NCBI GenBank assembly: GCA_016748015.1 | Contig: JAAOMT010000718.1 | Location: 1 to 64,000 of the forward strand | Length of the DNA stretch: 64,000 bases | Reading direction: 5' to 3' | Origin: Geosiphon pyriformis | Lineage: Eukaryota; Glomeromycota; Glomeromycetes; Archaeosporales; Geosiphonaceae | Shown here: positions 36,220 to 56,644 of the stretch, in pieces | Position numbering within the stretch: the first letter of the stretch is position 1 | Layout: every line of letters starts with the position of its first letter | The notes under the pieces: generated by a model | The model's input: the letters and a program-made list of their open reading frames with translations, nothing else | Database searches by the model: none | What the model was told of the DNA's origin: nothing | Made by a program: the position numbers and the translations under genes

Positions 36220-36823
36220 TGTTACCCAAGTAGAAAAACTGATCCAAAGTTATGAAGAAACATGACCAAAACATGACCAAAATATGACATAACACAAAAT
36301 AGCATGCAATAATGTTGGATAATGCATTATAACATAAGATAACGTGTTATAATACAGGATAATACAGAATAACATGTAATAATGTCAGATAATATGTTAT
36401 AACATAGAATAACTAGTGATAACATAGAAAAACAAAGCAATAACAGAAATAACAAAACAATAGCTAGTGATAGCAAGACAATTGAAAGCAATCCTGTAAA
36501 ACCAAAAGAATGTATAAAAGCAAGTAGTAGTAGAAGTTAGAAAAAGAGACAGATAGATATAAATCTCTAAACAAGAATCAAATATCCATACTTCTTCATC
36601 ATTTATTATTTTCCCTATTTTATCTTCTGAAATAAACCAATTATTAAAGAAATCAGAATCATAAATTCATGTTCTCGAACTTTGTGGAATTTATGTGAAT
36701 TAACTCTTGTCTCGTACTTTTATTCTAGGACAGATGCTCTTAGCATAACTGCCTCAAACTATTAATGATTTGGACCAATCACTCTTGATCACAGTGATTG
36801 ATGATACTAATTTTTCTTTTTTT

Positions 36824-36897
<74 letters not shown>

Positions 36898-37293
36898 CTT
36901 ATTTTTTTGTGGAACAGCAACATAGTAAAATTAACTGTCTGAGAATAGACTTCGTAATAACCTGGTAAAAGAGAAAAGCTCCCTCTAAGTTTTGGATATT
37001 AACATTATCTTGTTAGCTTACCAGAAAAGCAAAAAGACAACATCAGACCCTAACAACTGCGCTTGTTAGCTCAGAGAAGAAAGCTCACATTTATGGAAAA
37101 TGTTGTAATTGACAAAAAACAAACTCTGTGTCTTATAACCAAAGAACTCAATAGGTAAAATCACATCCAGGAATAGATCTTCAGAAACTGATAATCAAAA
37201 CTAAGCCAACAGAATTATGCAGAAGACACATTATTAATAATTGAGAGCACCAAATATTACCATTTCCCATATCCACCAAGTTTACCCATAACA
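36220..37293 (+). repeat. 5' LTR of element B (1074 bp)
   Basis: Begins TGTTACCCAAGTAG and ends CCCATAACA just before the primer-binding site. The first 250 bp hold a degenerate tandem array of AATAACATG/TTATAACATAG words (about 36250-36480). A T-tract of about 70 bp at about 36825-36897 is shorter and broken by C in the 3' LTR, which explains the length difference (1074 versus 1032 bp). Differences from the 3' LTR are mostly C/T and G/A. Confidence 0.92.
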
Positions 37294-37295
37294 TT

Positions 37296-37312
37296 TGGTG
37301 CTCCCTGTGAGG
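37296..37312 (+). promoter_or_regulatory. Primer-binding site of element B
   Basis: TGGTGCTCCCTGTGAGG starts 2 bp after the LTR end. The complement would be the 3' end of a host tRNA (..GGGAGCACCA). The tRNA identity cannot be decided from this window. The same site is used by element A. Confidence 0.8.
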
Positions 37313-37357
37313 TTATAAATCCACAAAGACAGAGCACCCCAGAGATACACAAAAGTA

Positions 37358-38598
37358 ATGACTATTGGAACAATAGAAAAAGACCATTTCTCATACGGAA
37401 AAGCACTATTTCAATACTTTTGAAAAAATCTAGGAATACCAGCAAAAACCACTATCACAGAAAGTGACTTTTGTAACTATATCAATGCAAAAATCAACTG
37501 CTTGTTAGGTTGCACAACAGACACAAGAAGACTTAAAGAACAAATCTATTAAAGCTTACTAAAGTACTCAACAACTACCACTACTTGAGCAATCACTGAA
37601 ACCTTATGCATAGTCAATACAGACATTAAACACTACATGACAAAATGATTCCCTTAAGTACAACAACCAGTAGAATTCAATCCAGAGGAATACGAGTACA
37701 AATCCAATAATCCTACAACTGCTCAAGACAAATCTACAGTCAACAAGAAACCAAGAGTTTTCTTCCCAACAACTCCATTATACCATCAGACACCTCAAAG
37801 TAGAATTGTATTCAACCTATTCTGGAAATCCAGTCAGAAACACCACGAACTTCTGGAAATTCACACCCTTGAAATTAACACAATTGGACCAAATTACTAG
37901 GAGAATACAGATTGCTGTTTGAAAATCTTACCCCAGCAGCCAGTTAAACAGAAAGAAACATGTCAACTTGAGAACAGCCACCAGCACAAAACCTAGCAGA
38001 ATTAGCATCTCCTCTGACAGAAAAAACAGCTATCTTACAATCTATTGGTTCAAGTGACAAAGGAAAACAACCAGCATTAACACCTGGAGAACATTCGAAT
38101 ACACAGATACCAATCCCTTTAAACATAACCAGTGACACCTCACCTATTAACCAGATCATGGCTTACCAGGATATTGCTAAATTGGAAAAATTCTTTGGCA
38201 AAGAAAATAATGCATATTTGTGGATTGCGGAAGCTGAGAAAGCAATCACTGCTAACAACTGGGATAATGACAAAGCTATTCAAGTGCTGCCATTTTTTCT
38301 AACTGGAACTGCAGACTCATGGTATTAAAGTCTTGCAGAAAAACCAACCAACTTTAATATCTTTAAGCTTGTCTTTTTACAATACTTTTGCAATCCCAAT
38401 ACATTAATCTGATTGCAGAATCAATTCAGCATAATTAAACAAAAAGATTACAAAGCAGTAACTACTTATCTTGGACGATTCAATCAAATCCTTCATCAAA
38501 TATTAGCTATTGAAAGAAACTATTATACTGCGGCACAAGTTTTTAATCAATTCATTAAAGAATTGTGAAGTAGTATTCTAAGATCTGTAAAACCCCGC
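37358..38598 (+). pseudogene. Element B gag, 5' part (interrupted by element A)
   Basis: Starts at the ATG in AAGTAATGACTATTGG (37358) with a stop-ridden N-terminal region. The in-frame stretch from ATG 38158 (MAYQDIAKLEKFFGKENNAY) reads a retrotransposon Gag core: WIAEAEKAIT, QVLPFFLTGTADSWY, TYLGRFNQILHQI, FNQFIKEL. It is colinear with element A Gag (KLDNFTDEED, AIPYFLKDTVDAWYQNL, TYLGRFHRNLRQI, LNQFIRDL). It breaks at codon CGC 38596-38598 where element A is inserted and resumes at 48861. Stops within the core include TAA near 38326 and TGA near 38565. At least one frameshift separates the two parts. Confidence 0.8.
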
Positions 38599-39449
38599 TG
38601 TTACTTATAGAAATATAGGAAATATATTAGCATAATTATTAGCCAATTAGAAGTAAGTGTAGTAAATGTGGAATTCCAAGATTTCTCTCAGGAATTGTAG
38701 GATTCCAGAAATTTCAGGATTCCCTAATGAGGAATTTCAGGATTCCAGAATTCCAGAATTTCTCTCAAAAGAATCACAGAATTCCAGGAATTCCAGAATT
38801 CCTGTCATGAAAAATCGAGGAATTGAAGAATCTTAATTATGTATATATAGTGGTAGTGTTAGAAACAGAAAAGACAGAATCGATACCACAGAATTCTTAG
38901 CTTAGAAACAAAAATCATCAAATAAATAATTATTCTATATCTCAATCCACTCTCCACTATCAACACTTTATGTTGATAATAAGTGATACTTAACCACACT
39001 GGAACAATAGCTCTTGATCACAGCTATTGATGAGATACTAATCTGCAAATTGCCTTGGCTTATTTCTTTTCTTTCTTTATTTTTCTCTTATTTTTCTTTA
39101 TTTTATTTTGATTTATTATTGTGCACTAACCCATTGATTGAAAAGCACTGATTACTGACATCAAAAATTGCCTGGTAAAAGACCCCTGTGAGAGGGTAGG
39201 ACATGTACAGAAGATATGGATTACTTACCAGAGGATTGCCAGCCACCAAGCCAAGAAAAAAATTGACAGACTTGTGAGTCTGGGAAGCTACGGATAAAAC
39301 AACTATTGAATCTCTGTTCATTATACAAAGGACTTTATTAAAACCTTCAGATACAATGCTTGCAGAACCTTATCAATGGAAGTAGCTTCACGAGCACCAA
39401 GTTATGGGTTTGTTATTTACTTTAACAGCAGAAATAATCCCTTGTAACA
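38599..39449 (+). repeat. 5' LTR of element A (851 bp)
   Basis: Starts TGTTACTTATAG and ends CTTGTAACA. It contains a cluster of GGAATTCC/GGATTCC half-palindromes at about 38668-38830, a TATA-like element at 38841-38850, and a T/C-rich stretch near 39060-39115. Compared by eye with the 3' LTR over the first ~300 bp, about 28 differences are transitions and one is a transversion. Confidence 0.94.
38841..38850 (+). promoter_or_regulatory. Candidate TATA box in LTR A
   Basis: GTATATATAG, about 240 bp into the LTR and just after the GGAATTCC cluster. It is followed about 30 bp downstream by AGAAACAGAAAAGACAG, a plausible transcript start region. The motif is kept in the 3' LTR (about 48248) and in the solo LTR (about 17350). 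This is position and sequence inference only. Confidence 0.5.
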
Positions 39450-39451
39450 TT

Positions 39452-39468
39452 TGGTGCTCCCTGTGAGG
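39452..39468 (+). promoter_or_regulatory. Primer-binding site of element A
   Basis: TGGTGCTCCCTGTGAGG, 2 bp after the 5' LTR end and identical to the site in element B. A shared primer tRNA agrees with the two elements being close relatives. Confidence 0.82.
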
Positions 39469-39508
39469 TATAATCCTACAGAGAACCAGCACCAACCCAA
39501 ATCTAAAC

Positions 39509-41290
39509 ATGGCAGAATCAGAAAATATAGGAGCAAACCATTTAGAATTCGTGAAATTTTTGTTTCAACAATACAGCCAACAATTAGAATTAAACAGTAA
39601 TCATTACCCAACTGAATCAGTCTTCAACTTTTACATCAACAACAGAATTACTAAATGCTTAGAAGGAACAGTTAACATTGAAGCAGCAAGAGAAAACTTT
39701 TACACAGAATTATTCCAACACACCAACTTACCAAGGAACTATAGTTTTGCACCAATAATCAGAGAAATCAACCAGACTATTAAAAGGTACACTCAACAAT
39801 AATTTCCTATTACCTACACAGACAAAGATAAAAGAAGAATACAAACACCAGCAGCAACACCAAAAGGAATACAGTTACTTAGTTGGAAGAAGCACAGAGT
39901 AGAATCACCAACCGCTCCATCATATTACTACACACCTGGAAGCACCATCAACATCTTATCAGCAAATGCATTCATCTCAAATGCAATATTAACAGTTGGA
40001 AGATTCCAGTTCCAAAGCAAACAATGGAAAGAAAATTTACTAGGGCCATACAGAGCGTATTTTGAAGGATTTAAATCATGATCACCAACTCCATTAGGAA
40101 TTCGATCACTGTTGCTTTAACCAGACTTTGGAATCGCTACCCTGTGGGAACTATCTGAAAAAGAAGAGAAAAAAGAATTAGAAGATCAAGAATTTACTTA
40201 CCAAAACCTGATCACTAAAAACCCAGAAGTTGAAACCCCAAATTTTCAAGCTCAGCAAAGTCTAAATCTAGAAAATTCGGAAATCGAAACCCTGAATCAT
40301 CAAAGGCAGAACAATCCAAACCCTGAATTAAGTAATCAGCAAAACTTACCTCTGGTAATCATCATCGATCAACTGCCGATTAATCCAGTAGCTGAACCCA
40401 TATAATAGCCATTTCAACTACCACCCCAACAACCAGTACAACAACAATCACTTCAACAGCCACCACAACAATCCAACTTAGATCCAATGGCCTACGCACC
40501 AATTGCAAAACTTGACAACTTTACTGACGAAGAAGATGATACACAAGTATGACTGAATAACGTAAAAAAAGCCATCACTGCGAACGGATGGAATGATGCC
40601 TAAGCACTTCAAGCCATCCCATACTTTCTAAAGGACACCGTGGATGCATGGTATCAAAATCTAGCTGTCAAACTCCAAAACTTCAATGACTTCAAGATGA
40701 AATTCATAAAATATTTCAGCAACAATAATAGTATCAACAAATTAGCCAACTTTTTCACCACCATCAAACAAGGAAATACTGAAGCAGTCACCACTTACCT
40801 GGGACGCTTCCATAGAAACCTACGCCAGATCCAAGCAATTCAAGCTGATTATTTTACAGTGCCACAGATTTTAAACCAATTTATTAGAGATTTGCACAGT
40901 AACCTCCTCCAGCGAGTACACCCAATGCATCCAGTTGACCTCCCTACCACAGTTATACATGCCAGAGATTTTGAAGCAGCTGAGTTAGAAGCCAACCACG
41001 CTCAAGCAGTAAACCTAGTAATGAATAGATCATCTGAATTGGACTCCAAACTGAAACAATTTAGTAAGTCAATTAATCAGAAACTAGAGAGATACTTAGC
41101 TGACAATCACGCCATATATCAAACACCACAACGATGCCATAATTCAGGAAATGCAAATCGTTTCCAAAATCAATCACAGTCATCATCCTTGACTACATCT
41201 AGTCTACTGTGGCAGCCGGAAATGCATGCCTGCCACAACTGTGGTAAACAAGGCCATATTCGAGTTAATTGCCATACTTATAGCAATTAA
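39509..41290 (+). pseudogene. Element A Gag with CCHC zinc knuckle
   Basis: ATG 39509, 59 bp after the 5' LTR end, starts MAESENIGANHLEFVKFLFQ. The first ~95 codons are open, and scattered in-frame stops follow (for example at 39800, 40078, 40403 and 40551). The Gag core runs from about 40500 to 41000: PIAKLDNFTDEED, AIPYFLKDTVDAWYQNL, TYLGRFHRNLRQIQAI, LNQFIRDLHSN. The zinc knuckle CHNCGKQGHIRVNC (C-x2-C-x4-H-x4-C) is at about 41230-41272. The TAA at 41288 is in frame with the following Pro/Gln-rich linker and protease and could be a mutated CAA. Gag forms the particle and binds element RNA. Confidence 0.85.
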
Positions 41291-42419
41291 CAATCAGGAA
41301 ATCAATACAGAAATCCCGATCACTGGTTCCAAACTCCGAATCGTTATCTGAATCAAGATTAAGACTAATATCAAACTACTTACCTGCCAATAACGCAGCA
41401 ACCAATCTATTAACCACCAGTATATCAACCTTTAATTTATCAATAGCAGTCTTCAGCAATTTATCAACAGCAGCCTCCAGTAATTTATTAGCCACAGCCC
41501 CAAATAATTTATCGGTCTCAACCATCAATTCAAACACCACTCCAAAACTCAGCTATGATGACATTAGGAAACCTGAGACCCAGAATTGTTCAAAATTGGA
41601 GATTGGCAATGGTTGTTCATTAACCAGTCTCCAGCTCTTCTCACCAGAGCTTAGGACTCCATTCTCAGAATTTGGGTACAGGTGCCACCCAAAATCTGAC
41701 TTCCCAACACTATTTAAGTCTTCTGGTTACCCCAGAAGACACCTTAACTAGCAACCAAAAACCCACCCAAAAACAACAAACACTTACCAGCAATATTCTG
41801 CCAGCAATAGTCACCAATGACGAATTACTAGCCGTCATCTTCCCATTCGAGATCGAAGAACCATCAAGTACACCATTATTTAGTAAAGCTGCTCTTGATG
41901 AAAAACCTATCACTGCGATGTACACAGATGCTAAGGTTGATGGTCAATCTATCAAATTGATTCTCGATAGCGGTTTAGCAGACAGTATTATCACATAACA
42001 ACTCATGGATCAATTAAGTCACTGAGTTGATCGAGCTGCCAGCGCCAGAATTATCACAGCTGATAAAGTGACCAAAACTCCAATCGGCAAAATCAACGAC
42101 TTCCCTTTCGAAGTCAATGGTATTGTGACTCTCATTAAAGTTCTAGTGATAGAAGCCACTCAATACCAAGCTCTTGTTGATAATGACTGGCTATCCAAAG
42201 TCAATGCGATGTTAGACTGGAACATCCAGGAATTCCAGCTAACATATCAGAGCCAACACATACATGTACTGGCCATGTGTGGCCATTTCAAGACTCCTCC
42301 AAAAGAGAAACTATTGATCGAACTGGAGAAAGAGAAAGAGAAACCTACCTGGGAAGCATACCAAGTCTCGTGGGCCGATGCCAACCACAACGAGCTGCCA
42401 CCAATACTCCCCTGAAACG
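41291..42419 (+). pseudogene. Element A Pro/Gln linker and retropepsin-like protease
   Basis: A linker of repeated Gln/Pro/Tyr words (YQQQPPVIY-like, about 41391-41510, with stops) precedes the protease. The aspartic protease carries LILDSGLADSIIT at about 41960-41997; DSG is the catalytic motif (DTG/DSG in the family). It continues after a stop with GKINDFPFEVNGIVTLIKVLVI (pieces) and NDWLSKVNAMLDWN, the hydrophobic flap and C-terminal part typical of Gypsy proteases. The frame is the same as Gag and RT. Element B has the matching LILDSGSASSIIM near 49820. Confidence 0.82.
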
Positions 42420-43600
42420 ACAATAACAACGGAAAAGAGGAGCAAAGAAAAAAACCTACCTGTGAAACCACTATCGATGCTGGGACCAATGACAAAGACT
42501 ACTATGAGCTACCACCAGTATTATCATGGGACGACAACTCCAAGGGAAAGCAAAGAGAGGAACTTACCTGAGAAACCAACAATCTAACTTGGACCAATAA
42601 CAAACAAGAAGAAGCCTCAAGTCGGGAATGGAATGAAGATAAGAGAAAAGAAAAAAAAAAAGAAGAAACACCATCAATGACTGACAGTTATAATTTCTAC
42701 ACCCACCACACTCCACAACAATCCAATTATCGACAGCCAAGGCTGGTATGCGTCAATTGTGGCAAGAAACTGTTGTCAATGGGCACATGTTGTGGTGATG
42801 ATGAGGAATACCACATTGCAACAAAGTTTTACTGTTGTTCATGTTTACTTGAACACTTTGGATGACCAAAGAGGCAAGAAAAATGGGATAACCAACCTTG
42901 TCTCACTTGTGGGGAGACCCTACTAGATGAAGAGATGTGGAATGACATCCCAGGACGTAAAGGAACATGCAACGTGTTGTGTCAATACACAATTTTAATA
43001 AGCGACTGGGTAAGGAAAGGAACCCCAATAGAAGCGGCCTGAAAAAGAGCCGTGCAGCAACTGAACAGTTGTCCACACAACAACAATGAATTGTGGAGAA
43101 TGGCAATTGCCAAAATAGAAGGAGTGACACCTAAAGAGATCAGAGAAATCAAAAACAACCCACCAGAACCCATCGAGCTTGACTGGAATGCAGAGCCAGC
43201 CATAAATTCTCTGGAACCCGAAGAGTTCCATGAACACTACCAAAACTTGGCACCCACTAGAGAAAAGCAAGAACAATGGCTAGCACAGTTGAATACAAGA
43301 CTGTGTTGCCATTGTTTAATTCCCAGTGACTTTGAATATTGTGACAATTGTGACCTCCTTTACAATCCACCACCACGCATAATTTACTTGATCCCTGAAG
43401 AAGAGGAACCAATCAGCAGCTGTGTATCGGAATCAGAATCACTGATCAATCATGATCTAGACTCCGACAATGACGATGAAAACATCGGTTCCAGCTCCGT
43501 TCAAAATAACAATGACAACAAAAATGATTCCAACTCAGATTCAAACTCCAATTTAAACCATGAACAATACATTGCACTATTAGATCTCTCCAAGGAACAA
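42420..43600 (+). pseudogene. Element A Cys-rich module between protease and dUTPase
   Basis: About 390 codons in the Pol frame linking protease to dUTPase. It has several Cys pairs with zinc-ribbon spacing: CVNCGKK with CCSC (about 42750-42843), CLTCGE with a later CNVLC (about 42901-42982), and CCHC plus CDNC (about 43305-43350). An acidic, Asn/Asp-rich spacer (about 43395-43560) follows. Element B has the same Cys pairs in the same order (CVDCGKK, CRPC, CLTC, CNHC), so the module is a real part of the element. I do not recognise it from other Gypsy elements; nucleic-acid binding is a guess. Confidence 0.65.
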
Positions 43601-44060
43601 GAGTTGAAATGGTATAGTGACAATGGGGAGGGTATTATGCCAGAACGTGCACATGATACAGATGCAGGGTTTGATCTGAGATATTCAGGAAAAGATGCCA
43701 TCAAATTGGAACCACATTCACACACCTGTATTGATCTGAAAATAGCACTAGAAATTCTGGCAACAACAATGGTTCAATTAGCATCTAGGAGTAGTTTAGC
43801 GAAAAGAGGGATCAATATAAGAGGAGGAATAATTGACACAGGATATGTAGGAAATATCATCGCTATGTTACAAAATGACTCAGAAAAGACCTACATAATA
43901 GAGCCCAACGAAAAAATAGCACAGGCAATATTCCTGCCTTTGGTTAGAGTGGCTCAGTTAGTATCAGTGGGAAAGAGAGAGGAATTAGGAATAACAGCAA
44001 GAGGAATACAGGGATTCGGATCAACAGATAGAATAGATGTACCAGTTAATATAGCAGAAG
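43601..44060 (+). CDS. Element A dUTPase domain
   Basis: All five motifs of trimeric dUTPases are present in order: DAGFDL (43661-43678), RSSLAKRGI (43787-43813), GGIIDTGYVG (about 43823-43852, holding the catalytic Asp and the Tyr), KIAQAIF (about 43912-43932) and RGIQGFGSTD (about 44002-44031). dUTPase hydrolyses dUTP to dUMP and pyrophosphate and keeps uracil out of newly made DNA. The domain lies in the unbroken 758-codon stretch 43052-45328, between the Cys-rich module and the pre-RT region. In betaretroviruses and non-primate lentiviruses dUTPase sits elsewhere (upstream of protease, or between RNase H and integrase). Residues look intact here, although the element is otherwise dead. 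Confidence 0.9.
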
Positions 44061-45328
44061 AAAAAATTGTTGGCCAAGGAGAAATTATCTCAACTGGTCA
44101 AGCTATTTCTATTCCACCATATAGCCAGTACATGCTAACAATAGGAAAGAAAGAAAAAGAGCAAAGACAAATTTTTAAAGCTGAAGCAAACCTTTGTAAA
44201 TCAGGAGAGATTGGGTTGATCAATCTCCACATACCAGCCAAAAGCTATAGCAGCATAAAAATTCTCATCTACAACAACACTGGTAATGTCATCAACATAC
44301 CAGAAGGAACTACCATTGGATATGTAACCACAAAAATAGAAGACCAACCACCAAACCCCATTCCAGACTTTCTACAACTTTGTGGATATGTTGACATTAC
44401 ATCACAAACAATCTATAGACGAGATAAATGTTATTTGCTTCAACCAGAACAATTGGAACAAATGAACATGGGAAACTTAGATCCACTCCAATGTATGCAG
44501 CTCAAGATGTTACTCAACAATTTCAACAACATCTTTGCCAGTAAAAATGAGTTTGGCCGAACTGACATCATCCAGCATCAGATCAAGACTGGAGATATAA
44601 TGCCAATCAAACAAAGAGCATACAGAGTGCCGCCAGCCAGCCACAAAATCATTCGTCAAGAGATAAACAGAATGCTTGACAATGGGCTAATTCAACCATT
44701 AATGAGTCCATGGTCGTTACCAGTGGTACTCGTCTGTAAAAAGAATAGAAAAATCCAGTTTTGTGTAGACTACAGGAAACTCAATGGTGTAACTCGTGGA
44801 AACAGTTATCCAACTTCACGAATACAGGAATTATTCAATGCTTTCGGTGGGAACAAATGGTTCTCAACATTAGATTTGGACAGTGGTTACTGGCAAGTAG
44901 CCATGAATTCAGCTGACAAAGAGAAGACAGCATTTACTACTAGAGAAGGGAATTTCGAATTTGAAGTAATGCCATTTGGCTTAACCAATGCTCCAGCAAC
45001 TTTCCAATGGCTAATGGAAATCATTTATACTGGCTTATTGTGGAAATCAGTAGTTGTATACTTGGACAACACCAATGTATTCTCAAAAACGTTTGATGAT
45101 CATCTTCATCATCTTCAACAAGTGTTCGAAAGACTAAGAAAAGCAGGACTAAAGTTAAATGCAACAAAGTGCTTCTTCGGTAAGACAGAACTAAAATTCT
45201 TAGGACACATAGTCAGCAAAGACAGCATCAAAATGGATCCAGAGAAAATAGAGATAGTAAAAAACTTTTCAGTGCCAACCAATATGACAGAACTGAAATC
45301 ATTCTTGGGATTTGCCAGCTACTATTAA
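44061..45328 (+). pseudogene. Element A pre-RT beta domain and reverse transcriptase
   Basis: First comes a beta-rich linker seen in many Gypsy Pols: SIPPYSQYMLTIG, then GLINLHIPAKSYSS and NIPEGTTIGYV. RT starts near 44570 with HQIKTGD and runs RAYRVPPASHKI, MLDNGLIQPLMSPWSLPVVLV, FCVDYRKLN, FSTLDLDSGYWQV, MPFGLTNAPATFQ and KCFFGKTELKFLGHIVS, matching Ty3/Gypsy RT. The catalytic box reads YLDN (45059-45070) where YLDD is expected; element B keeps YLDD. The change is one G-to-A in the second Asp codon. The open stretch ends at TAA 45326-45328 after FASYY, in frame with RNase H. Confidence 0.9.
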
Positions 45329-45997
45329 CATTTTATCAAGAACTTTTCCAAGATAGCACAGCCACTCAACCAACTGCAAAACAAAAATACAAAATATGAA
45401 TGGACTGAAAGTCAACAAGAAGCTTTTGATATTCTAAAAAAAAAGCTTATACAAGCTTCAGTACTGATCTATCCAGATCACAGTAAAACATTTATTATCA
45501 CCACAGATGCATCCAGCCAGGCATTAAGAGCAGTACTATCTCAAAAAGGACCAGACGGCAGAGAACATCCAGTGGCATATGCCAGCAAAGGTTTAACACT
45601 AGCTGAAAAGAACTATGGAACACCAGAAAAAGAACACTTAGCAATATACTGGTCAGTCATGAAATGGAAAGAATATTTGAGCCAGAAGTTTGAAGTGTAC
45701 ACAGATCACAAAGGATTAACATCACTTCAAAAACAAGAATTTGGAGATAGAAGACAGTCAAAATGGAAAATGGCACTTGCACCATATAAGTATACTATAC
45801 ATTATAAAAAAGAAAAAAACAACAAAAATGCGGATGGTTTATCACAAATGAGACAAATCTAAGAACATTTCAATCCAAAAATATAACAAAACCAGAACAA
45901 TACCAACAGAAAAATACAACAAAAGATTAACATACAAAAATATCAACAATTACAATATTATATAAACACTTAACAGTTCAAGGAGAATTTATCTCAA
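45329..45997 (+). pseudogene. Element A RNase H and connection region
   Basis: Continues the RT frame: FIKNFSKIAQPLNQL, YEWTESQQEAFDILK, then RNase H with IITTDASSQALRAVL (first Asp), EKNYGTPEKEHLAIYW (Glu), EVYTDHKGLTSL (Asp) and NNKNADGLSQM (last Asp). It removes element RNA from the hybrid during reverse transcription. A stop at 45860 follows the domain, and two more fall before the integrase at 45998; in the unmutated element this was probably read through as polyprotein. Confidence 0.87.
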
Positions 45998-47090
45998 ATG
46001 GAACAAAAGAGTATCAAACAACAATCAAAATATTTTATCACTCACCAAAATATACTTTATTGGAAAAATAGAAGGGATCCAGATCAACCAACCAGAGTAA
46101 TTACAGAGCCAGAAAAAGAGACAATATTATTCAACATGCACTCAAATCTAACAGCAGGACATTTTCACAAAGAAACAACCATGGAAAGAACCAAAAAGAG
46201 ATACTATTGGCCATCAATGTACCCAGACATCATTCAATATGTTCAAAATTGTGATGCTTGTCAGCAAAGAAGAGGAACAAGACCCAGTAAACCATTAAGA
46301 CCAATCAAAGTGGGACAACTATTTGACCGTATTGGAATTAATTTAGTCAGACCATTAACAATCACTAGCAGAGGAAACAGATACATAGTGGTAGCTATGG
46401 ATTATTTCACTAAATGGCCAAAGACAAAAGCAATTCAAAGAGCGGATACAGAATCTGTTGCCAAATTCATTCATCAGGATTTGATTTGTCGACATGAATG
46501 TCCAAAAGAATTATTATCAGACCAAGGAACTCATTTTGTGAACAAAACATTAACAGAATTGAGCCAAAGATTCGGAATCAAGAGACTATTATCATTACCA
46601 TACCATCCACAAACCAACAAATTAGTAGAAAGATTCAATAGAACACTGTGTGAAGCAATAGCTAAGTTCAGCCAAGAAAACCAGAATGATTGGGATTTGT
46701 TCATACCATCAGTACTATTTGCTTATCAAACAATGAAACAAGATACTACACAAGCAATACCATTTAAATTAATATATGGGAGAACAGCAACATTACCAGT
46801 AGAGAGAGAAATTAATACATATCCAGCTGAACCAATAACAGAAGAAAATTTTCAAGAAACATTGCTGAGAAGAACATATGACTTAATGGAAACATTGGAA
46901 AACAAATGAAGAAGAGCAGCTGATAATATTCAAAAGTCACAAGAAAAACAAAAAGAAAGACATGATAGTCAACTACCAGACAAACCAGTTGAATTCAAGA
47001 TTGGAAACAAAGTATTACTACATCATACCAAAGCAAAAAAACAATGGAGTGGAAAATTCGACCCCAAATAGGATGGACCATTTCACATAG
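45998..47090 (+). pseudogene. Element A integrase with GPY/F-like module
   Basis: An HHCC zinc domain (HSNLTAGHFH ... CDACQQ, about 46139-46268) is followed by the catalytic core. The first catalytic Asp is replaced: IGINLVRP (Asn codon 46340-46342), while element B has IGIDLVGP. The second Asp is kept in LLSDQGTHF (about 46513-46539) and the Glu in KLVERFNR (about 46619-46642). A TGA near 46909 is followed, in frame, by RAADNIQKSQEKQKERHD, FKIGNKVLLHHTKAKKQWSGKF and DGPFHIEEILGNRAYKL (pieces), a GPY/F-like module. No chromodomain was seen. Integrase inserts element cDNA into the host genome; this copy cannot. Confidence 0.88.
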
Positions 47091-47992
47091 AAGAAATTCT
47101 AGGAAATAGAGCTTACAAATTAAGATTGGATAACAAAATTTTAACCAAAGCAGCACATGGAGATCGACTAAAGCCATATTGCGACATCACACTACCATCT
47201 ACCAGTAATATTCCACAATTAGGAGTACAGAGAATATTAGTCTAACTAGATGAGATTTCACGAGATTTGGAACCAATAGTTATTATTAACAACAACACAT
47301 TAAATTGATCAATCAAAAGAATATATAAAGACATGATAGACACAACAGGAAATATCAGAAAAATGGAAATTACAGACAATATTTACACATTAGCACAACA
47401 ACTCTTTCAATTAATCCAACACCAGGAAATGGAAATTACAATCAACCAACAAACCATTTGATATCAAGATACTAGAAAGACATTGCAACTCAGAACACCA
47501 AAAAAAACTAAAGATATGGTGAACAAAATTATGGCGAAAGTAAAATTAGCAATAAAAAAATTGACAAAAGAGTCACTATATCAAGAGTTAACTAAAGAAA
47601 CTTGGAATTGGTGAATACAACAATTTCCAAGAAACTATTGTTATTTTTACTTGGAACAACACATAAATATCCAGAATCTATATACGGATAAAACAAAGCA
47701 ATTATTCAACAAAAGAATACTACAACAATTAGAACATTTTGTAAGAAAGAACAACTTATCCACACAAGCCCAAGCCATATACTGAATACACACAGCATTT
47801 TAGGATAAACCAGAAATATTGCTCAACAAAACAATGGATATGGTCACCAGTAATCAATTGGGAAAAATCACCAATGCTTAATTTGAAGAAATACAGACCT
47901 AAATAACACAAGTAATTCTCAAAAACAAAATCCAGGAAATACTTCAAGAGGGAGAATTACATGAGTTAGATTTCGACAGAGCTCAATATTAA
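47091..47992 (+). pseudogene. Element A C-terminal extension of Pol (unknown function)
   Basis: About 300 codons continue in frame after the integrase to TAA 47990-47992, just before the 3' LTR. It is rich in Gln, Asn, Lys and Ile with helical spacing (IYTLAQQLFQLIQHQEMEI, KIMAKVKLAIKKL, LEHFVRKNNLS, LGKITNA) and many in-frame stops. Element B has a related end (VEKFVRKNNLT, FTGAQF then stop, 55330-55598). There is no signal peptide, membrane helix or chromodomain, so I see no sign of an envelope. Function is unknown; similarity between copies suggests it was once selected. Confidence 0.6.
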
Positions 47993-48005
47993 AAGGAGGG
48001 AATAA
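47991..48005 (+). promoter_or_regulatory. Polypurine tract of element A
   Basis: AAAAGGAGGGAATAA immediately before the 3' LTR; the purine run primes plus-strand synthesis. The Pol stop codon (47990-47992) overlaps its first bases, so the coding frame uses the whole internal region. Confidence 0.8.
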
Positions 48006-48856
48006 TGTTACTCATAGAAATATAGGAAATATATTAGCATAATTATTAGCCAATCAGAAGTAAGCATAGTAAATATGGAATTCCAGGATTCCTCTCAGGA
48101 ATTGCAAGATTCCAGGAATTTCAGGATTCCCCAACGAGGAATTACAGGATTTCAGAATTCCAGGATTTTTCTCAAAGGAATCACAGGATTCCAGAAATTC
48201 CAGGATTCTTGTCATGAAAAATTGAGGAATTGAGAAATCTCAATTATGTATATATAATGGTAGTGTTAGAAACAGAAAAAACAGAATCGATACCACAGAA
48301 TCTTTAGCCTAAAAACAAAAATCATCAAATAAATAATTATTCTATATCTCAATCCACTCTCCACTATCAACACTTCATGTTGATAATAAGTGATACTTAA
48401 CCATACTGGAACAATAGCTCTTGATCACGGCTATTAATGGAATACTAATCTGCAAATTGCCTTGGCTTATTTCTTTTCTTTCTTTATTTTTCTCTTATTT
48501 TTCTTTATTTTATTTTGATTTATTATTGTGCACTAACCCATTGATTGAAAAGTGCTGATTACTGACATCAAGAATTGCCTGGTAAAAAACCCCTGCGAGA
48601 GGGTAGGACATGTACAGAAAATACAGATTACTTACCAGAAGATTGCCAGCTACCAAGCCGAGAAAAGAATTGACAGACTTGCGAGTCTGGGAAGCTACAG
48701 ATAAAACAACTATTGAATCTCTGTTCATTATACAAAGAACTCCATCAAAACCTTCAGATACAATGCTCGCAGAACCTCATCAACGGAAGTAGCTTCATGA
48801 GCACCAAGTTACAGGTTTGTTATTTACTTCAACAGCAGAAATAATCTCCTGTAACA
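48006..48856 (+). repeat. 3' LTR of element A (851 bp)
   Basis: Starts TGTTACTCATAG and ends CCTGTAACA. It has the same length and layout as the 5' LTR. A CpG seen as ACG in the solo LTR reads TG in the 5' LTR (AAGTGTAG) and CA in the 3' LTR (AAGCATAG), as expected from independent CpG deamination. Confidence 0.94.
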
Positions 48857-48860
48857 CTGC

Positions 48861-49574
48861 CATCCAACCAATTTACAAGATGTCATCACTCTCACTCGTG
48901 ATTTTGAGTCTGCAGAACAAGAAGCAAACCATACCCAAGCCATCAATTTAGTCATTAATAGAACCTCTGACATTGACACAAAGATAACCCAATTGAGTAA
49001 GAAACTAACTCAGAAAATTGAGGGATTCTTAGCCAGAACTACAGGAACCTATCAACCATCACAACAGAGAGAAAATAACAACAACAGATACCCACAGCAA
49101 CAGAACCGTCAGCAACAGCAACAACCCTAGAGAACCAATCCCCACAACTGTTACTACTGCCAAAAACCTAAACATATTGCGTGAGACTGCAGAAAGAAGA
49201 TCATAGACCAAAATCTAAGAAACCAATACCAGCAACCAAGATATTAGCAAAGCATGGTATTTCAATATCTCATACCTCAAAATCAACCACTCCAATATGC
49301 ACAACAAGTCCTGTATACTCAACCACTGCCCCAGAATTATTATCAACCATCACTAATAATACAAGCAATCCCTTACTATCAAACTCTTCTTTACAGTCAG
49401 CCCAGATCTCGAGCTATAGACTATAATCAGGGATGGAGAAATCCCAACAACAATCAGACACAAACCAGCAGTGGACCATTTTGACCAATTTCTCGTGGTC
49501 CTGTCCAATCTCGACTAGTACCAACTGGATACCCGAATCAAGCTTCCTATCTCAGTTTCACAGAAGACCAGAGT
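48861..49574 (+). pseudogene. Element B gag, 3' part with CCHC knuckle
   Basis: Resumes the B gag frame after element A: HPTNLQDVITLTRDFESAEQ, aligned with HPVDLPTTVIHARDFEAAEL in A. It then reads HTQAINLVINRTSDIDTKI, a Gln/Asn-rich stretch, and the knuckle CYYCQKPKHIA-stop-DC (about 49150-49190; one codon mutated to TGA). A long Gln/Pro/Tyr linker follows (about 49260-49560), with the same character as in A. Confidence 0.82.
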
Positions 49575-50312
49575 TTGGATAAATCTACACCTGTGGGAGG
49601 GAGAGATGTAAAACAAATCTCCCAACCTTCCAAGCAAATAAAAAACAATATCCCACCAGCCACTATTACCGAGGACACCACCCTAGCTACCATATTTCCT
49701 TTTGACATCAATAATTTAAACACCTATAGCCTTTTTAATGGAGCAGCCATCAATCAGGATAAACCAATAATGGTCTTATACACTGATGCCAAAGTCAGAA
49801 GAGTAAACATTAAATTAATCTTGGATAGCGGATCAGCCAGTAGCATAATTATGAAGCAGCTCATGGACCAACTAGGTCGCCGAGTAGACCATACTGCTAC
49901 CACCTAGATCATTACAGTAGATGGAAACACAAAAACCCTGATAGGAAAAATTGACAACTTCTCCTTTAAGATTAATGGAATTCAGATCTCTACCAAAGTA
50001 CTTGTCATAAAAACCACTCAATATCAAGCTCTAGTGAAAAACAATTGGTTGTCAAAAGCCAACATTACTCTTGACTGGAACACTCAAGAACTTCAACTCA
50101 CATTTAACAAACAGCATGCCTGAGTTCCAGCTATGTGCAGACACTTTAAAACCCAATGTACTAAGGAACTCCTTATTGAATTTGAAAACACACCACTGCC
50201 ACCAACTATCGAGACCTATCAGGTTTCATAAGTGGATGATTATTGAACTAAACTACTCCCACCACCAACCTGGGAAGAAAAAAGAAAAGGCAGAGCAGAA
50301 GAAAAACCCTAA
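49575..50312 (+). pseudogene. Element B protease
   Basis: Retropepsin-like domain: MVLYTDAKVRRVNIKLILDS (49770-49830) with LILDSGSASSIIMKQLMDQL, catalytic DSG near 49822-49830. After a TAG near 49905 it continues GKIDNFSFKINGIQISTKVLVI (pieces) and the region matching NDWLSKVNAMLDWN of A (here NNWLSKANITLDWN). It is in frame with RT at 52206. The active-site motif looks intact but stops interrupt the domain. Confidence 0.8.
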
Positions 50313-51110
50313 TTGTCATTACTAGAATACATAACTTCAGACCAAAAAAACTTATTTTATCAACCTCCAAGACTCATATGTGTCGATTGTGGAAAAAAGC
50401 TATCCACTATGGGCACATATATCGGAGACAATGAAAAATGGCCCACTGCCACCAAATACTACTGCAGACCTTGTGTACTAGAAAAATTTGGACAACCAAA
50501 ATGACAAGGCAAGTGAAACAACATGCTGTGCCTCACATGTGACAAGATCTTGCCTGATGAAGAACTCTGAAATAATGTGCTTGGCAGAAGAAGAAGATGT
50601 AACAAGGCTTGTCAATATACCATATTAATCAAAGATTGGATACAAAAAAGAACCCCCATTGAGGACACTTGGAAATGAGCACTCAATAGGCTGGACAGTT
50701 ATCTACACAATAACCACGAAATCTGGAGAATGACAAGTGCCAAAGCCAAAGGCGCCACACCCGAAAAGATATGAGAAATTAAGGACAACCCTTGGATGCC
50801 CGAATATAATAAACCTGACTACCCCACAGATGATTTCTTCACAGATGACCCAGATGCATTTTAGAACTGATATCAAGAATTGGCCCCAACTTGCAAAAAA
50901 CAAAAGCAAAGGTTGGCCAATTTGAATAACAAGCTGTGCAATCACTGTTTGATCTCCTGTCACTTCCAGTACTATGATGAATGTGATCTTATATTTAATC
51001 TGTCTCCAAGAATACTGTTTTCAATCACTGAACTACCTGAGCCCAAAGAAAAAGAGGTATTGATCACTGAGAACATATTGTTTTAAGATCCAACTGAGGA
51101 TACTGAAACA
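50313..51110 (+). pseudogene. Element B Cys-rich module
   Basis: Counterpart of 42677-43600 in element A: LICVDCGKKLSTMGT, YYCRPCVLEKFG, CLTCDKILPDEE, CNKACQYTILIKDW, IWRMTSAKAKGATPEKI and CNHCLISCHFQYYDECD. Cys spacing agrees with A apart from single losses (for example TYIGDN where A has TCCGDD). Stops interrupt it several times. Its conservation in two diverged elements argues it is a functional module of this element family. Confidence 0.65.
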
Positions 51111-51960
51111 GAACAGTATCTTATGTATTCCGATCTATCCAAAGAACTAGAGCTAAAATGGTACAGTGACAACGAGAAAGAAATCTGCCCCAAAAGAGCA
51201 CATGATACCAATGCTGGTTTTGACCTATGATACTCCAGGCAATTACCCATTATTATAGCCTTACATTCTTTTGTAAAAATAGATTTTAAGATAGTGTTAG
51301 AAATTTCTGTTAGTACAATGATACAAGTTGCCTTTCGATCTAGTCTAGCCAAGAAAAAAATTAACATAAAAGGAGAAATCATCAATGCTGGTTATATGAG
51401 AAACATCATCATAATGCTACAGAACAATTCAGACAGACCCTACAAAATAGAATCACAAGAAAAAATTGCCCAAGCTATTTTCCTACCCCTAGTCAAAATA
51501 TTCCAATTGACTCTGGTAACAACTTAAAAAGAATTAAGCCTCACTGCCTGAAGAATCAACGGATTTGAATCAAGTGGAAGAGAAAATGTACCAGTTAATT
51601 TCACAGAGAAAGACAGTGACCAGGTAGAATTTATCTACACTGACACTATTATCTCCATTCTCCTGTATTGACAATACATCCTTAAGATAAATTGAAAGAT
51701 CCAAGATCAAGTTCTGTTATTCAGAACCAGTCCCAAAATCTGTTTTTTAGCCAATGTTGCTAATTTATATCTACCAGCCAAAGCTTATAAACACTTCAAA
51801 ATCCCCATTTACAACCCAACAGAAGATGTCATTGAAATCCCCAAAAGAACTCTCGTCAGTTTCATATCCACAGATATTCAAAATCCTGAAAAACCCCAAT
51901 CCATTTCAGATTTCACACAATTATTCTTATTCTGTGATATTACCTCACAAGTATGGAATT
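51111..51960 (+). pseudogene. Element B dUTPase (degraded) and pre-RT region
   Basis: dUTPase motifs match element A but are damaged: NAGFDL then a stop (about 51210-51230), RSSLAKKKI (about 51339-51365), IINAGYM where IIDTGYV is expected (catalytic Asp to Asn, about 51382-51400), KIAQAIFLP (about 51463-51489) and RINGFESSGR for RGxxGFGSTG (about 51552-51582). The pre-RT beta linker follows, with stops (LPAKAYKHFKIPIYN-like, about 51770-51830). It shows that the dUTPase between protease and RT is shared by both elements and not an isolated capture. Confidence 0.85.
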
Positions 51961-53402
51961 TGCCAAAAGAAAGTTACTTGTTTACATCAGAAGAGATCAA
52001 TAAATTGAATTTAGGAAACTTAAGTATTCTACAACAAATACAACTCAAAGTTCTTCTGAATCAGTATGCCGATGTCTTTGCCAGTGAAAATGAGTTCGGA
52101 CACACTGACATTGTGAAGCATCAGATTGATACGAGAGATACTCAACTGATTAAGCAATGAGCTTACTGCGTACCTCTATCTGGCAATAACCTAATTAAGC
52201 AAGAAGTGCAACAGATGCTTGATAATGGCCTAATCAAAGAATTGTTAAGCCTTTGGTTTTTGCCAGTAGTCTTGGTCACCAAGAAAAATGGAAAAGTGCA
52301 ATTCTGCGTAGACTACAGGAAACTAAACAGTGTTACCCGAGGAGATAGTTATCCCACTTTTCTTATCCAGAAAATTCTGAACAGTCTAGAAAAAAAGAAA
52401 TGGTTCTCGTCATTAGATTTAGCAAGTAGTTACTGGCAAGTTGAAATAGACCCCAAAGACAAAAGAAAAACAGTGTTTACCACTTGAAATAGAAACTTTG
52501 AGTTTAATGTAATGTCTTTTGGACTTTGCAACACTTCCGCCATGTTCCAATACCTCATAGATATTATATATAAAGGAATCCTATGGAAATCAGTCATAGT
52601 ATATCTAGATGATACCAATGTCTTCTCTGAAATGTGTGACAATCATTTGCTCTATTTGCAACAAGTCTTTGAATGCCTTCATAATGCCAGATTGAAACTC
52701 AATCCCAATAAATGCTTCTTTGGAAAAACTGAGTTAAAATTCCTAGGACATGTAATCAGCAAAGACAGAGTCAAACCCAATTCAGATAAAATCCAAAAAG
52801 TCAAGAATTTTCCAGCCCCAATCAACCTCAAAGAATTACAAGGATTTCTAGGATTGGCAGGATATTATCATCTATTTGTTAAAGATTTCTCGAATATCAC
52901 AAAACCACTCCATCATTTGTTGTCCAAATACATACCGTACTTGTGAAAGGAAGATCAACAGAAGGCATTCGACTATCTCAAGCAGTAATTGATTACATCT
53001 CCAATCCTGATTTATCCAGATTTCACTAAACAGTTTATTGTCACTACAGACGCCTCGAAAAATGTTCTAGGAGCAGTCTTATTACAGATAGGACCGGACA
53101 ATAGAGAACATCCAGTTGCCTATACTAGTCGCAGCACAAGCCCAACAGAAAAGAATTACAGCACAACAGATCTGGAATGTCTCACCATTTATTGGGCCAT
53201 ACAGACTTGGAAACATTACCTCAGTCAACTATTTGACTTATATACTGACCACAAAGAACTTATTTGGTTACTCAACAATTCACAACTAGAAGAAAAATAT
53301 GCGAAATAGAGTACTTATCTACAACAATTCCCACTTAAAGTCTATTACAAAGAAGGATCCAAGAACACCAATGCCGACAGTTTGTTGAAGATGCTACAAA
53401 CC
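51961..53402 (+). pseudogene. Element B reverse transcriptase and RNase H
   Basis: RT: HQIDTRDTQLIKQ, MLDNGLIKELLSLWFLPVVLV, FCVDYRKLNSVTRGDSYP, FSSLDLASSYWQVEI, MSFGLCNTSAMFQYL, and an intact palm box YLDD (52602-52613), then KCFFGKTELKFLGHVIS and LQGFLGLAGYYHLFVKDFS. Motif A reads LDLASSYWQ, where A has LDLDSGYWQ. RNase H: VTTDASKNVLGAVL, EKNYSTTDLECLTIYW, DLYTDHKELIWLL, and SKNTNADSLLKML at the end. It is broken by stops near 52158, 52486, 52946 and 53307. It is otherwise in one frame with the B protease. Confidence 0.86.
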
Positions 53403-54800
53403 TAATCCCAGACTCATGAATACACTCACTTATCAATAACTATATCAGTACTTATTGACACTACATTTCAAGGAGATATTATCTCAACAGGAACAAAGTA
53501 CCATATGAAAACAAGCCCAAAATTATTTTATTTAAGACAACCAACTATATCGACAAGAACACCAAAACCATTCTACTCCACAACGACTAATCAAGGACAG
53601 TAAAAGAGAAACTATATTATATAGCATACACTTAGATCCAATGTTAGGACACTTTAACAAAGATGCTACTCTTGAAAAAACACTAAATTTATACTATTGA
53701 CCAATGATGTACAAAGACATTTTCGAATACATACTCAATTGTGATGCATGTCAGCAAAGAGGAGGAGCAAGATCAACAGAACCACTTCAACCCATTCCAG
53801 TTAGAAATTTATTTGATAGAATTGGGATTGATTTGGTTGGTCCTCTTTCAATTACATCCAAAGGAAATTGGTACATTACTGTAGCTGTAGACTATCTTAC
53901 AAAATGGCCAGAAGTTAGAGCAATCCAAGTAGCTGATGCCAAAACAGTAGCCAAATTCATACACCAAAATCTAATTTGCAGACATAGATGCCTGAAAGAA
54001 TTGCTATTTGACCAAAGAACACATTTTGTCAATAATACACTAACAGAATTAAGCCAACAGTTTGGTATAAAACATCCTCTATCGTCACCATACCACCCAC
54101 AAACAAATAGACTGGTAGAATGATTTAACCGAACACTTTGTGAAGCACTAACAAAAATAAGTCAAGAGAATGAACAAGAATAGGACTTATTCATACCTTC
54201 AATACTCTTTGCATACTGAACACTAAAACAAAATACAACACAATTCACATCATTCGAACTAGTCTATAAAAGAAAAGTGACATTACCTATCAAACAAGAA
54301 ATATTGTCCTACCCAACAGAAACAATCACCAAAGAGAATTTCAAAGCTACCTTACACCAAAGAACATACCAGCTAATAAAAATGTTAGAAAACAACTGAA
54401 AAACAGCAGCTGATAATATTAATAATGCTCAAAAATGGCAAAAGGAAAGACATGACAATCACCTGCTTGAACAACCAATGGAATTTAAGATTGGAGACCA
54501 AGTACTGTTACATTATACAAAAGCTGAGAAACAGTAGAGTGGAAAGTTCAACCCAAAGTGGGACAGTCCATTTCACATACATGAAGCTTTAAGAAATAGA
54601 GCTTACAAACTACAATTGAAAAACACGATTTTAAAGAAAGTAGTGCATGGAAATCGGTTAAAAATTTATCATGCAAAACAGGAATTATTGTCATTAGTAC
54701 CTCAACTAGGAACACAAATTTCATTAATTAGACCAGAAGATATACCACAAGATCTGGAACCAATCATCATTATTGAAACATAGACAATGGGCAGCAAATT
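53403..54800 (+). pseudogene. Element B integrase and GPY/F-like module
   Basis: It lies in a different frame from RNase H, so there is a frameshift between about 53400 and 53700. The zinc domain ends CDACQQRGG (about 53740). The catalytic triad is complete: IGIDLVGP (Asp about 53828), LLFDQRTHF (Asp about 54010) and RLVE directly followed by a TGA (Glu about 54118). Downstream, with stops, come WQKERHDNHL, FKIGDQVLLHYTKAEKQ, GKFNPKWDSPFHIHEALRN and AYKLQL, matching the GPY/F-like part of element A. Confidence 0.83.
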
Positions 54801-55598
54801 AAATTGGGGAATTCAAATATATATAGCATCCAAAAAGCAGCAAGAAATAATAGAAATTTTAACATGGACTTTTCAGATTAAATTTTAAAATTATCTAAAC
54901 AATTATTTGAAACAATTCAAAAATCTCCTGTTCAGATAAAAATAACAATTAATAAAAAAGAGATATGGTATAAAAATAAGAGCAAGAGAGGAGAGGACAA
55001 GAATTCAATTAAAACTAAATGTTTCCTCCCCTACCCACCATCCAAAAGGCAATGTTGGAGGAAAAATTGCCTTTAGGCAAAAGGTAGAAAAGAAAGAGGC
55101 AAAGAATAAAAAAAAGATTACAAAAGAAGATACTTGGTCCCTGAGCTTGAAAAAATAAAAGAAGCTTTAGCTCATAAGACCAAACTTCCTAAAACAGGGG
55201 AGTAGACACCTGACAATACCCAGAAATGGAAAGAAAAACTTCCTCTAGCATATTGGTTCTACAAAATTGGAAAACAGCTTGACTTGAAAACATTATACAA
55301 AGACCTCAGCCAGAAAATATTCAACAAAGAAGCAATACAACAAGTAGAAAAGTTCGTAAGGAAAAACAACTTGACCCTATATTACAAAGCAGCATACCGA
55401 CTATATGCCACTTTTCAATATTGTCCAAACGTACTGTTGTATGAATCAATAAAGATGATAATAGTTAACAACATAGGATGAATTACTAATTAACAGTTCG
55501 AAGACCTACAAAAAACAATACTCGATGCAATCATCGAACATTACACAAACAAAGACATAGGAACAGATATATATGATTTCACAGGAGCTCAATTCTAA
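54801..55598 (+). pseudogene. Element B C-terminal extension
   Basis: Stop-ridden region corresponding to the extension of element A. A Lys-rich first half (about 54890-55150, with a possible inserted or diverged segment LPYPPSKRQCW) is followed by an open 65-codon part (55284-55481: LYKDLSQKIFNKEAIQQVEKFVRKN-type, shown in part). It ends IYDFTGAQF then TAA at 55596-55598, aligned with LDFDRAQY then TAA in A. Function is unknown. Confidence 0.55.
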
Positions 55599-55612
55599 AA
55601 AGAGAGAGATAA
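55596..55612 (+). promoter_or_regulatory. Polypurine tract of element B
   Basis: TAAAAAGAGAGAGATAA lies directly before the 3' LTR, with the Pol stop overlapping it, the same arrangement as in element A. Confidence 0.75.
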
Positions 55613-56644
55613 TGTTACCCAAGTAGAAAAACTGATTCAAAATTATGAAAAAATGTAACCAAAATGTGACCAAAACATAACATAACACAAAATAGTGTGC
55701 AATAATGTTGAATAATATGTTATAATGTAGGATAATGTGTTATAATGCAGGATAACACAGAATAACATGTAATAACATCAAATAACGTGTTATAACATAG
55801 AATAACTAGTAATAACGTAAAAAAACAAAGCAATAACAGAAATAACAAAGCAATAACTAGTAATAGTGAAACAATTGAAAGCAATTCTGTAAAACCAAAA
55901 AAATGTATAAAAGCAAGTAGTAGTAGAAGTTAGAAAAAAAGACAGATAGATATGAACTTCTAGACAAAAATCAAATATCCATATTTTTTTATTATTTATT
56001 ATCTTCCCTATTTCATCTTCTGAAATAAACCAATTATTAAAGAAATTAGAATCACAAATTCATGTTCTTGAATTTCATGGAATTTACATGAATTAACTCT
56101 TGTCTTGTATCTTTGTTCTAGGACAGATGCTCTTAGCATAACCATCTCGAACTATTAACAATTTGGATTAATTGTTCTTGATCATAGTAATTAACAATAC
56201 TAATTTATCTTTTTTTTCTTTTCTTTTCTTTTTCTTTTCTTTTTATTTTTTATTTTTTTGTGGAGTGGCAACATAGTAAAATTAACTGTCTGAAAATAGA
56301 CTTCGTGATAGCCTGGTAAAAGAGGGAAGCTCCCCCTAAGTTTTGAATATTAACATTATCTTGTTAACTTACCAGAAGGGTGAAAAGACAATGCCAGACC
56401 CTAATGGCTGCGCTTGTTAGCTCAGAGAAAAAAGCTCACATTTACGGAAAATATTACAATTGACAAAAGACAAACTCTGTGCCTTATAACCAAAAAACTC
56501 AACAGGTAAAATCACATCCAGGAATAGACCTTCAGAGACTGATAATTAAGACTAAGCCAACAGAATTACATGAAAGACGCATCATCAATAATTGAGAGCA
56601 CCAAACATTACCATTTCCTATACCTACTAAGTTTACCTGTAACA
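55613..56644 (+). repeat. 3' LTR of element B (1032 bp)
   Basis: Starts TGTTACCCAAGTAG and ends CCTGTAACA. It has the same degenerate AATAAC/TTATAAC array and the same order of sequence words as the 5' LTR, but the T-tract here is a broken TTTTCTTTTC run (about 56209-56258). Confidence 0.93.

Follow-up and report, generated by a model that had tools for sequence, protein, structure and literature searches.

A stretch of 64,000 nucleotides from the genome of Geosiphon pyriformis (contig JAAOMT010000718.1, positions 1 to 64,000 of the forward strand; hereafter the window, with all positions counted from its first letter) carries at 38599-48856 a long terminal repeat (LTR) retrotransposon of the Ty3/Gypsy kind, which sits within the gag of a second Gypsy element at 36220-56644. 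Comparison with related copies indicates, at a probability that we put at roughly 0.8, that the element is a dead member of a highly abundant Geosiphon family with three genes: a frameshift-free first open reading frame (ORF1), a free-standing integrase gene (ORF2) and a small third one (ORF3). It is also probable that at least four Geosiphon families possess a separately translated, free-standing DDE integrase and a third small ORF, which would place the integrase outside Gag-Pol delivery. In retroviruses and LTR retrotransposons, the integrase is taught to be packaged via Gag-Pol, a route that fixes its dose and delivers it to the complementary DNA (cDNA). The organization proposed here, if true, would break the rule that LTR elements with a DDE integrase bring this enzyme into the particle within a polyprotein; such an abundant lineage would provide a natural test of whether the coupling of Gag-Pol and integrase is needed, and would add a fungal example of translation from a downstream ORF. 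An earlier note on this DNA had read 39509-47992 as one Gag-Pol of 2827 codons with a C-terminal extension, interrupted by in-frame stops only, but the integrase and the "extension" appear to be separate ORFs lying behind conserved stops. The genes and stops in question are:

39509..45862, plus strand: ORF1, 2117 codons before its stop, comprising Gag, CCHC knuckle, protease, Cys-rich stretch, dUTPase, reverse transcriptase (RT) and RNase H; decayed in this copy
45860..45862, plus strand: stop TAA of ORF1, directly after RNase H
45884..45886, plus strand: a further conserved stop, within the RNase H-integrase linker
about 45926..47308, plus strand: ORF2, integrase (H2C2 46106-46273, core 46370-46609, GPF 47072-47083)
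47306..47308, plus strand: stop TGA of ORF2
47333..47992, plus strand: ORF3, 219 codons, the former "extension"

The window copy was aligned over 44774-48174 with 12 sister copies (L031-L042) that had been picked from integrase matches, ten of them without a stop inside the integrase, so that decay of the integrase is understated in this set. The reading frame of the window holds 34 internal in-frame stops, three of which (45860, 45884 and 47306) are stops in 13/13 aligned copies, while any other stop within 44774-47990 is present in at most 7 of the 13 and is mostly CAA, CGA or TGG in the remaining copies. Four families that share the layout were compared, namely A, B (to which the window copy belongs), C (L016, L019, L022) and D (the outer element), and a stop is found at the end of RNase H in all 29 copies in which this end is readable (A 10, B 15, C 3, D 1). 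This count covers neither the window itself (L029) nor the copies with an unreadable RNase H end (L009, L010, L011, L014, L015, L026) nor those ending short of RNase H, i.e., L001-L008, which span 3.4 kb around the dUTPase, and L043-L052, which span gag and protease. Genome-wide, a 22-letter pattern of the flanks that leaves the RNase H-end codon free finds a stop in 463 of 464 places for family B (460 TAA or TAG and 3 TGA; none for the reversed-pattern control) and TAA in 69/69 places for the sister family A. The codon at the integrase end yielded 137 genomic matches, with TGA or TAA in all of the 100 matches listed. Decay was gauged with a control TGG codon of RNase H, which gave 161 matches, with a stop in 27 of the 100 listed (counted by eye). 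Because the copies are kin by descent and not independent, such counts speak to ancestry of the stops within the families and not to the number of their origins. The stops at 45860, 45884 and 47306 are thus best read as ancestral and not as decay; the conserved stop at the RNase H end makes the integrase a putative ORF of its own, and the one at 47306 makes a third ORF of the "extension". More generally, in-frame stops of decayed copies are not to be dismissed as decay without comparison of sister copies.

The position of the integrase relative to RNase H differs among the families. The offset modulo 3 is 2 in family A (7/9 copies, the other two carrying indels), 0 in families B (7/13) and C (3/3), and 1 in family D. 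With three offsets among four families, no single frameshift or readthrough event could serve all of them, and the varying frame likewise speaks against readthrough or frameshifting across the junction as a general device. Nevertheless, the integrase is under purifying selection across the four families (dN/dS between families 0.17-0.35, with dS above 1), which, together with the varying offset, points to separate translation of the integrase. The earlier reading, in which a single Gag-Pol polyprotein is made and the stops at the RNase H end are either decay or bypassed by readthrough or frameshifting, agrees with the domain order of Gypsy Pol and with the frame that RNase H and integrase share in family C, in the window and in six more of the 13 family B copies. 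It appears very improbable in view of the near-invariant stop at the RNase H end in families B and A compared with the control codon, the second stop at 45884 and the different offsets in families A and D.

Candidate start codons for ORF2 lie shortly behind the ORF1 stop. At 45926, an ATG is found in 11/13 family B copies, 61-65 nt past the stop, the window having ATT; in family A, the ATG is found in 7/9 copies, at 29-31 nt; the distance is 10 nt in family D and 51 nt (L019) and 57 nt (L022) in family C, where the codon is lost in L016. The second element of L021 has a shortened linker. Linker indels in family B amount to 12.1 events per kb per copy, compared with 7.6 in the LTR and 0.77 in RT/RNase H. 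Termination-reinitiation would be in keeping with the short linkers and with an AUG so soon after the stop, and we tentatively favor, at somewhat less than even odds, a route in which ribosomes would finish at the ORF1 stop and restart at the AUG 10-65 nt downstream, so that the integrase would be made apart from ORF1. The latter would supply the particle protein, protease, dUTPase, RT and RNase H as one frameshift-free protein, and binding to RT or Gag, not inclusion in Gag-Pol, would take the integrase into the particle or to the nuclear DNA complex. Retroviral dUTPases have been proposed to keep uracil out of cDNA, and the dUTPase of these elements may do the same.

Expression of the separate integrase ORF from a spliced or otherwise subgenomic RNA, in the manner of an env gene, is doubtful when taken by itself and still nearly as likely as reinitiation. 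The family-specific offsets fit any independent start, a conserved CTCAACAG is found near the integrase start in family B, and reinitiation after an ORF of 2117 codons would, from general knowledge, be inefficient. On the other hand, no conserved canonical splice donor of the GTRNGT type is present within 45500-45930 in the 13 family B copies, the leader and the rest of ORF1 being outside the scan, and the candidate acceptor lies downstream of the conserved ATG. An intron confined to the region between RNase H and integrase was rejected for want of such a donor, which could, however, be located farther upstream.

Several observations weigh against separate translation of the integrase as proposed here. 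The offset of family D comes from a single copy, the ORF2 ATG is lost from two family B copies (the window and L034) and two family A copies (L012 and L017), and the frames of L018 (A) are disturbed by indels. In three of the 13 family B copies (L038, L040, L042), the first AUG past the stop is outside the integrase frame, at +42/43, where the other copies have ACG or ACA. A splice acceptor could be provided by the conserved AG at 45975, which lies past the ORF2 ATG. Within family B, codon-position diversity reveals no third-position excess for the integrase, so that selection on it is visible between families only. Picking the copies by full integrase matches also biases the low indel rate of the integrase (0.06). 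No intact three-ORF element is found among the copies read, and the route of ORF2 expression, be it reinitiation or a subgenomic or spliced transcript, is inferred.

A further alternative, which we consider unlikely, is that a rare helper with an ordinary Gag-Pol has spread the amplified families in trans and that their own integrase is crippled. None of the copies read is both complete and free of defects, and a TGA within the integrase is common to most family A copies, as such a scenario would allow; set against it are the same layout with three frame offsets in four families and the purifying selection on the integrase between families. A weaker counterpoint is that no integrase domain is listed in the 120 listed dUTPase/RT gene models, the search being limited to models of about 420-1330 amino acids. 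The TGA in question (L028:7605) is shared by 7/8 family A copies and points to a CpG hot spot or else to an integrase defect inherited within that subfamily.

The family is very abundant: a query with the window integrase returned 6457 first-look candidates, of which 127 were scored, at 82-89% identity with the window itself left aside. Out of 284 protein homologues, the 120 listed all belong to the G9A89 set of Geosiphon pyriformis. The Pfam matches within the integrase (Integrase_H2C2 4.7e-20, rve 8.8e-11) are in the same frame as ORF1 in the window, and its closest solved structure is Ty3 Gag-Pol (7q5b, 1.8e-24). No Pfam match to a chromodomain, the mark of chromoviruses, is found in 46910-47068, 47072-47239 or the ORF3 protein P0123, with 47243-47305 outside the scan.

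The ATG of ORF3 at 47333 is present in 12/13 family B copies, and a second one at 47363 in 11/13. In family A, a TAA closes the integrase frame ahead of ORF3 in 6/6 copies, and the ORF3 of that family is about 30% identical to that of family B. In Geosiphon, ORF3 is annotated as separate proteins such as P0123 (209 amino acids) and P0124 (207 amino acids); 127 homologues were found, and all among the 120 listed are from Geosiphon. P0123 and P0143 match no Pfam family and P0206 has weak matches below the cut-off only, while the AlphaFold model of ORF3 has a mean predicted local distance difference test score of 47.7 and is unreliable.

For the part up to RNase H, much of the earlier description holds. 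Over 39509-47992 there are 35 stops in the claimed frame (including the terminal TAA at 47990) compared with 192 and 173 in the two others, which makes a single long coding frame far beyond chance, and Pfam recognizes Gag, dUTPase, RVT_1, RT_RNaseH, Integrase_H2C2 and rve in this frame and in the order described. The domains of ORF1 are:

40604..41287, plus strand: Gag core and CCHC knuckle (Pfam Retrotrans_gag 5.5e-10)
41624..42412, plus strand: aspartic protease region, with LILDSG at 41957-41974
42572..42862, plus strand: Cys-rich stretch, read directly
43631..44026, plus strand: dUTPase domain (Pfam dUTPase 7.4e-21; E. coli dUTPase 1dud 7.4e-13)
44738..45214, plus strand: reverse transcriptase (RVT_1 2.4e-31), with YLDN at 45059-45070
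45401..45787, plus strand: RNase H (Pfam RT_RNaseH_2 and RT_RNaseH, the latter 4.3e-33)

All five dUTPase-type motifs can be read between protease and RT, at 43655-44026. The CCHC knuckle is readable at 41231-41257 and remains under the Pfam cut-off (E 0.037). The protease pieces of the window itself have no Pfam protease match, and the identification stands by way of three Geosiphon gene models (P0088, P0111, P0114), the corresponding part of which passes the gag-asp_proteas or Asp_protease_2 cut-off. The Cys-rich module is real and common to the relatives, with no Pfam family above the cut-off.

The claimed absence of a gag/pol frameshift is likewise borne out. The window and ten further stretches (L043-L052) were aligned over gag and protease, and the linker between the two has a length that is a multiple of three in 8/8 sister copies with both ends and is stop-free in 2/8. 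Where eight or more sequences cover a stop of the window, no more than 4/9 have a stop there, and the highest stop frequency anywhere, 7/11, falls on a codon that the window still reads as CGA; coverage of family B is thin before about 40600 and after 42400, with one to four sequences (e.g., the stop at 40403 is found in 2/3). Over 43043-45325, 58 genomic matches besides the window are in-frame at 81-86% identity with zero to nine stops, one of them stop-free. Family A has no conserved stop from gag through RNase H. In this family, L012 has an N-free open frame of 1433 codons covering Gag, protease and dUTPase, and L013 has one of 1307 codons that runs from protease to RNase H and ends exactly at the RNase H stop, the integrase being deleted. 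The three longest open frames (1847, 1719 and 1659 amino acids; L009-L011) overlap N runs of the assembly and were dropped as evidence. As judged from these frames, all domains from Gag through RNase H are encoded in one frame with no gag/pol frameshift.

The Gag of eight of the ten sister copies is 61-66% identical to that of the window and that of the two others (L045, L047) 81-83%, while the integrase is 84-88% identical throughout; this split may reflect a mosaic origin of the window copy or a swapping of gag among subfamilies. The family A dUTPase is 53-63% identical to that of the window, and the best 120 of 344 matches in a dUTPase search are all from Geosiphon. A dUTPase profile gave 3181 first-look candidates in the Geosiphon genome, of which 150 were scored; the genome is loaded with retroelement dUTPases.

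The inner element has the paired TG...CA LTRs, a probable target-site duplication with one mismatch, a purine-rich tract and the domain order protease-RT-RNase H-integrase of the Ty3/Gypsy group, and its trimeric-type dUTPase domain between protease and RT places it among dUTPase-bearing retroelements. A usual, if not strictly defining, trait of the group, an integrase within the Pol polyprotein, is lacking since a conserved stop splits RNase H and integrase, and Gag to integrase do not form one open frame. In Saccharomyces Ty3 the integrase lies inside Pol, and we take the two ORFs found in some CsRn1-like PwRn1 elements to be gag and pol, so that their split would not fall between RNase H and integrase.

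As regards the placement of the dUTPase, which the earlier note left as perhaps undescribed, the passages of the papers cited here already report it between protease and RT in fungi, rotifers and planarians (PMC2864245, PMC5408684, PMC6431247). The fungal Gypsy elements with a dUTPase include PosPlaTy3-5 of Postia placenta, in which it is likewise situated between protease and RT, Phanerochaete elements and Tmt1 of Tuber, and the pertinent text mentions no separate integrase ORF, unlike what is found in the Geosiphon element (PMC2864245). The bdelloid elements Juno, Vesta and TelKA have the same dUTPase position and, in some families, GPY/F with no chromodomain; they differ in having pol genes with protease, RT, RNase H and integrase in that order and in ORF3 types that are env-like or enzymatic (PMC5408684). 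Gag-pol without a frameshift is described for bdelloid Mag and Vesta1b (PMC5408684), and DGLT-A consists of one ORF. Ty3 of Saccharomyces makes Pol via a +1 frameshift (PMC5911963). Expression of PwRn1 is described as variable, from one fused ORF, two ORFs in the same frame or overlapping ORFs (PMC2582038). The open-licence literature searched, in which the wording varies, yielded no LTR element with a DDE integrase in an ORF of its own. The nearest parallels are DIRS elements, as described for SymbioDIRS-Dnmt3, where the integrating enzyme is likewise in a separate ORF and is a tyrosine recombinase instead of a DDE integrase (PMC5890265), and a non-LTR element reported with APE, RT and RNase H in three ORFs.

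The borders of the inner element and its surroundings are:

36220..56644, plus strand: outer Gypsy element (family D), interrupted by the inner element
38595..38598, strand not assigned: CCGC, left flank of the probable 4-bp target-site duplication, read directly
38599..39449, plus strand: 5' LTR, 851 bp, with TGTTAC...GTAACA ends
39450..39469, plus strand: primer-binding-site-like stretch, assigned by its position right after the 5' LTR, with no tRNA matched to it
47991..48005, plus strand: purine-rich tract adjoining the 3' LTR, read directly
48006..48856, plus strand: 3' LTR, 851 bp

The right flank, CTGC at 48857-48860, differs from the left one by one transition, and the outer element's gag continues on either side of the inner element, one half in each flank. 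The two LTRs are 92.5% identical, with 64 differences, no gaps and a Kimura two-parameter distance of 0.081. As 63 of the 64 differences are transitions, decay has been almost purely of the C-to-T/G-to-A kind; together with the stops arising mostly from CAA, CGA and TGG, this is the pattern of repeat-induced or methylation-driven decay. Asp residues that are catalytic appear to have been lost from both RT, which reads YLDN where YxDD is expected, and integrase, which reads GINLV at 46334-46348, where the outer element has GIDLV. By its stops, the ATT in place of the ORF2 ATG, YLDN and GINLV, the window copy is dead in several ways. The outer element also has a dUTPase (51159-51608), and its integrase (53464-54393) is out of frame with its own RNase H and behind a TAA; its two LTRs share about 84% identity across 1074 aligned columns.

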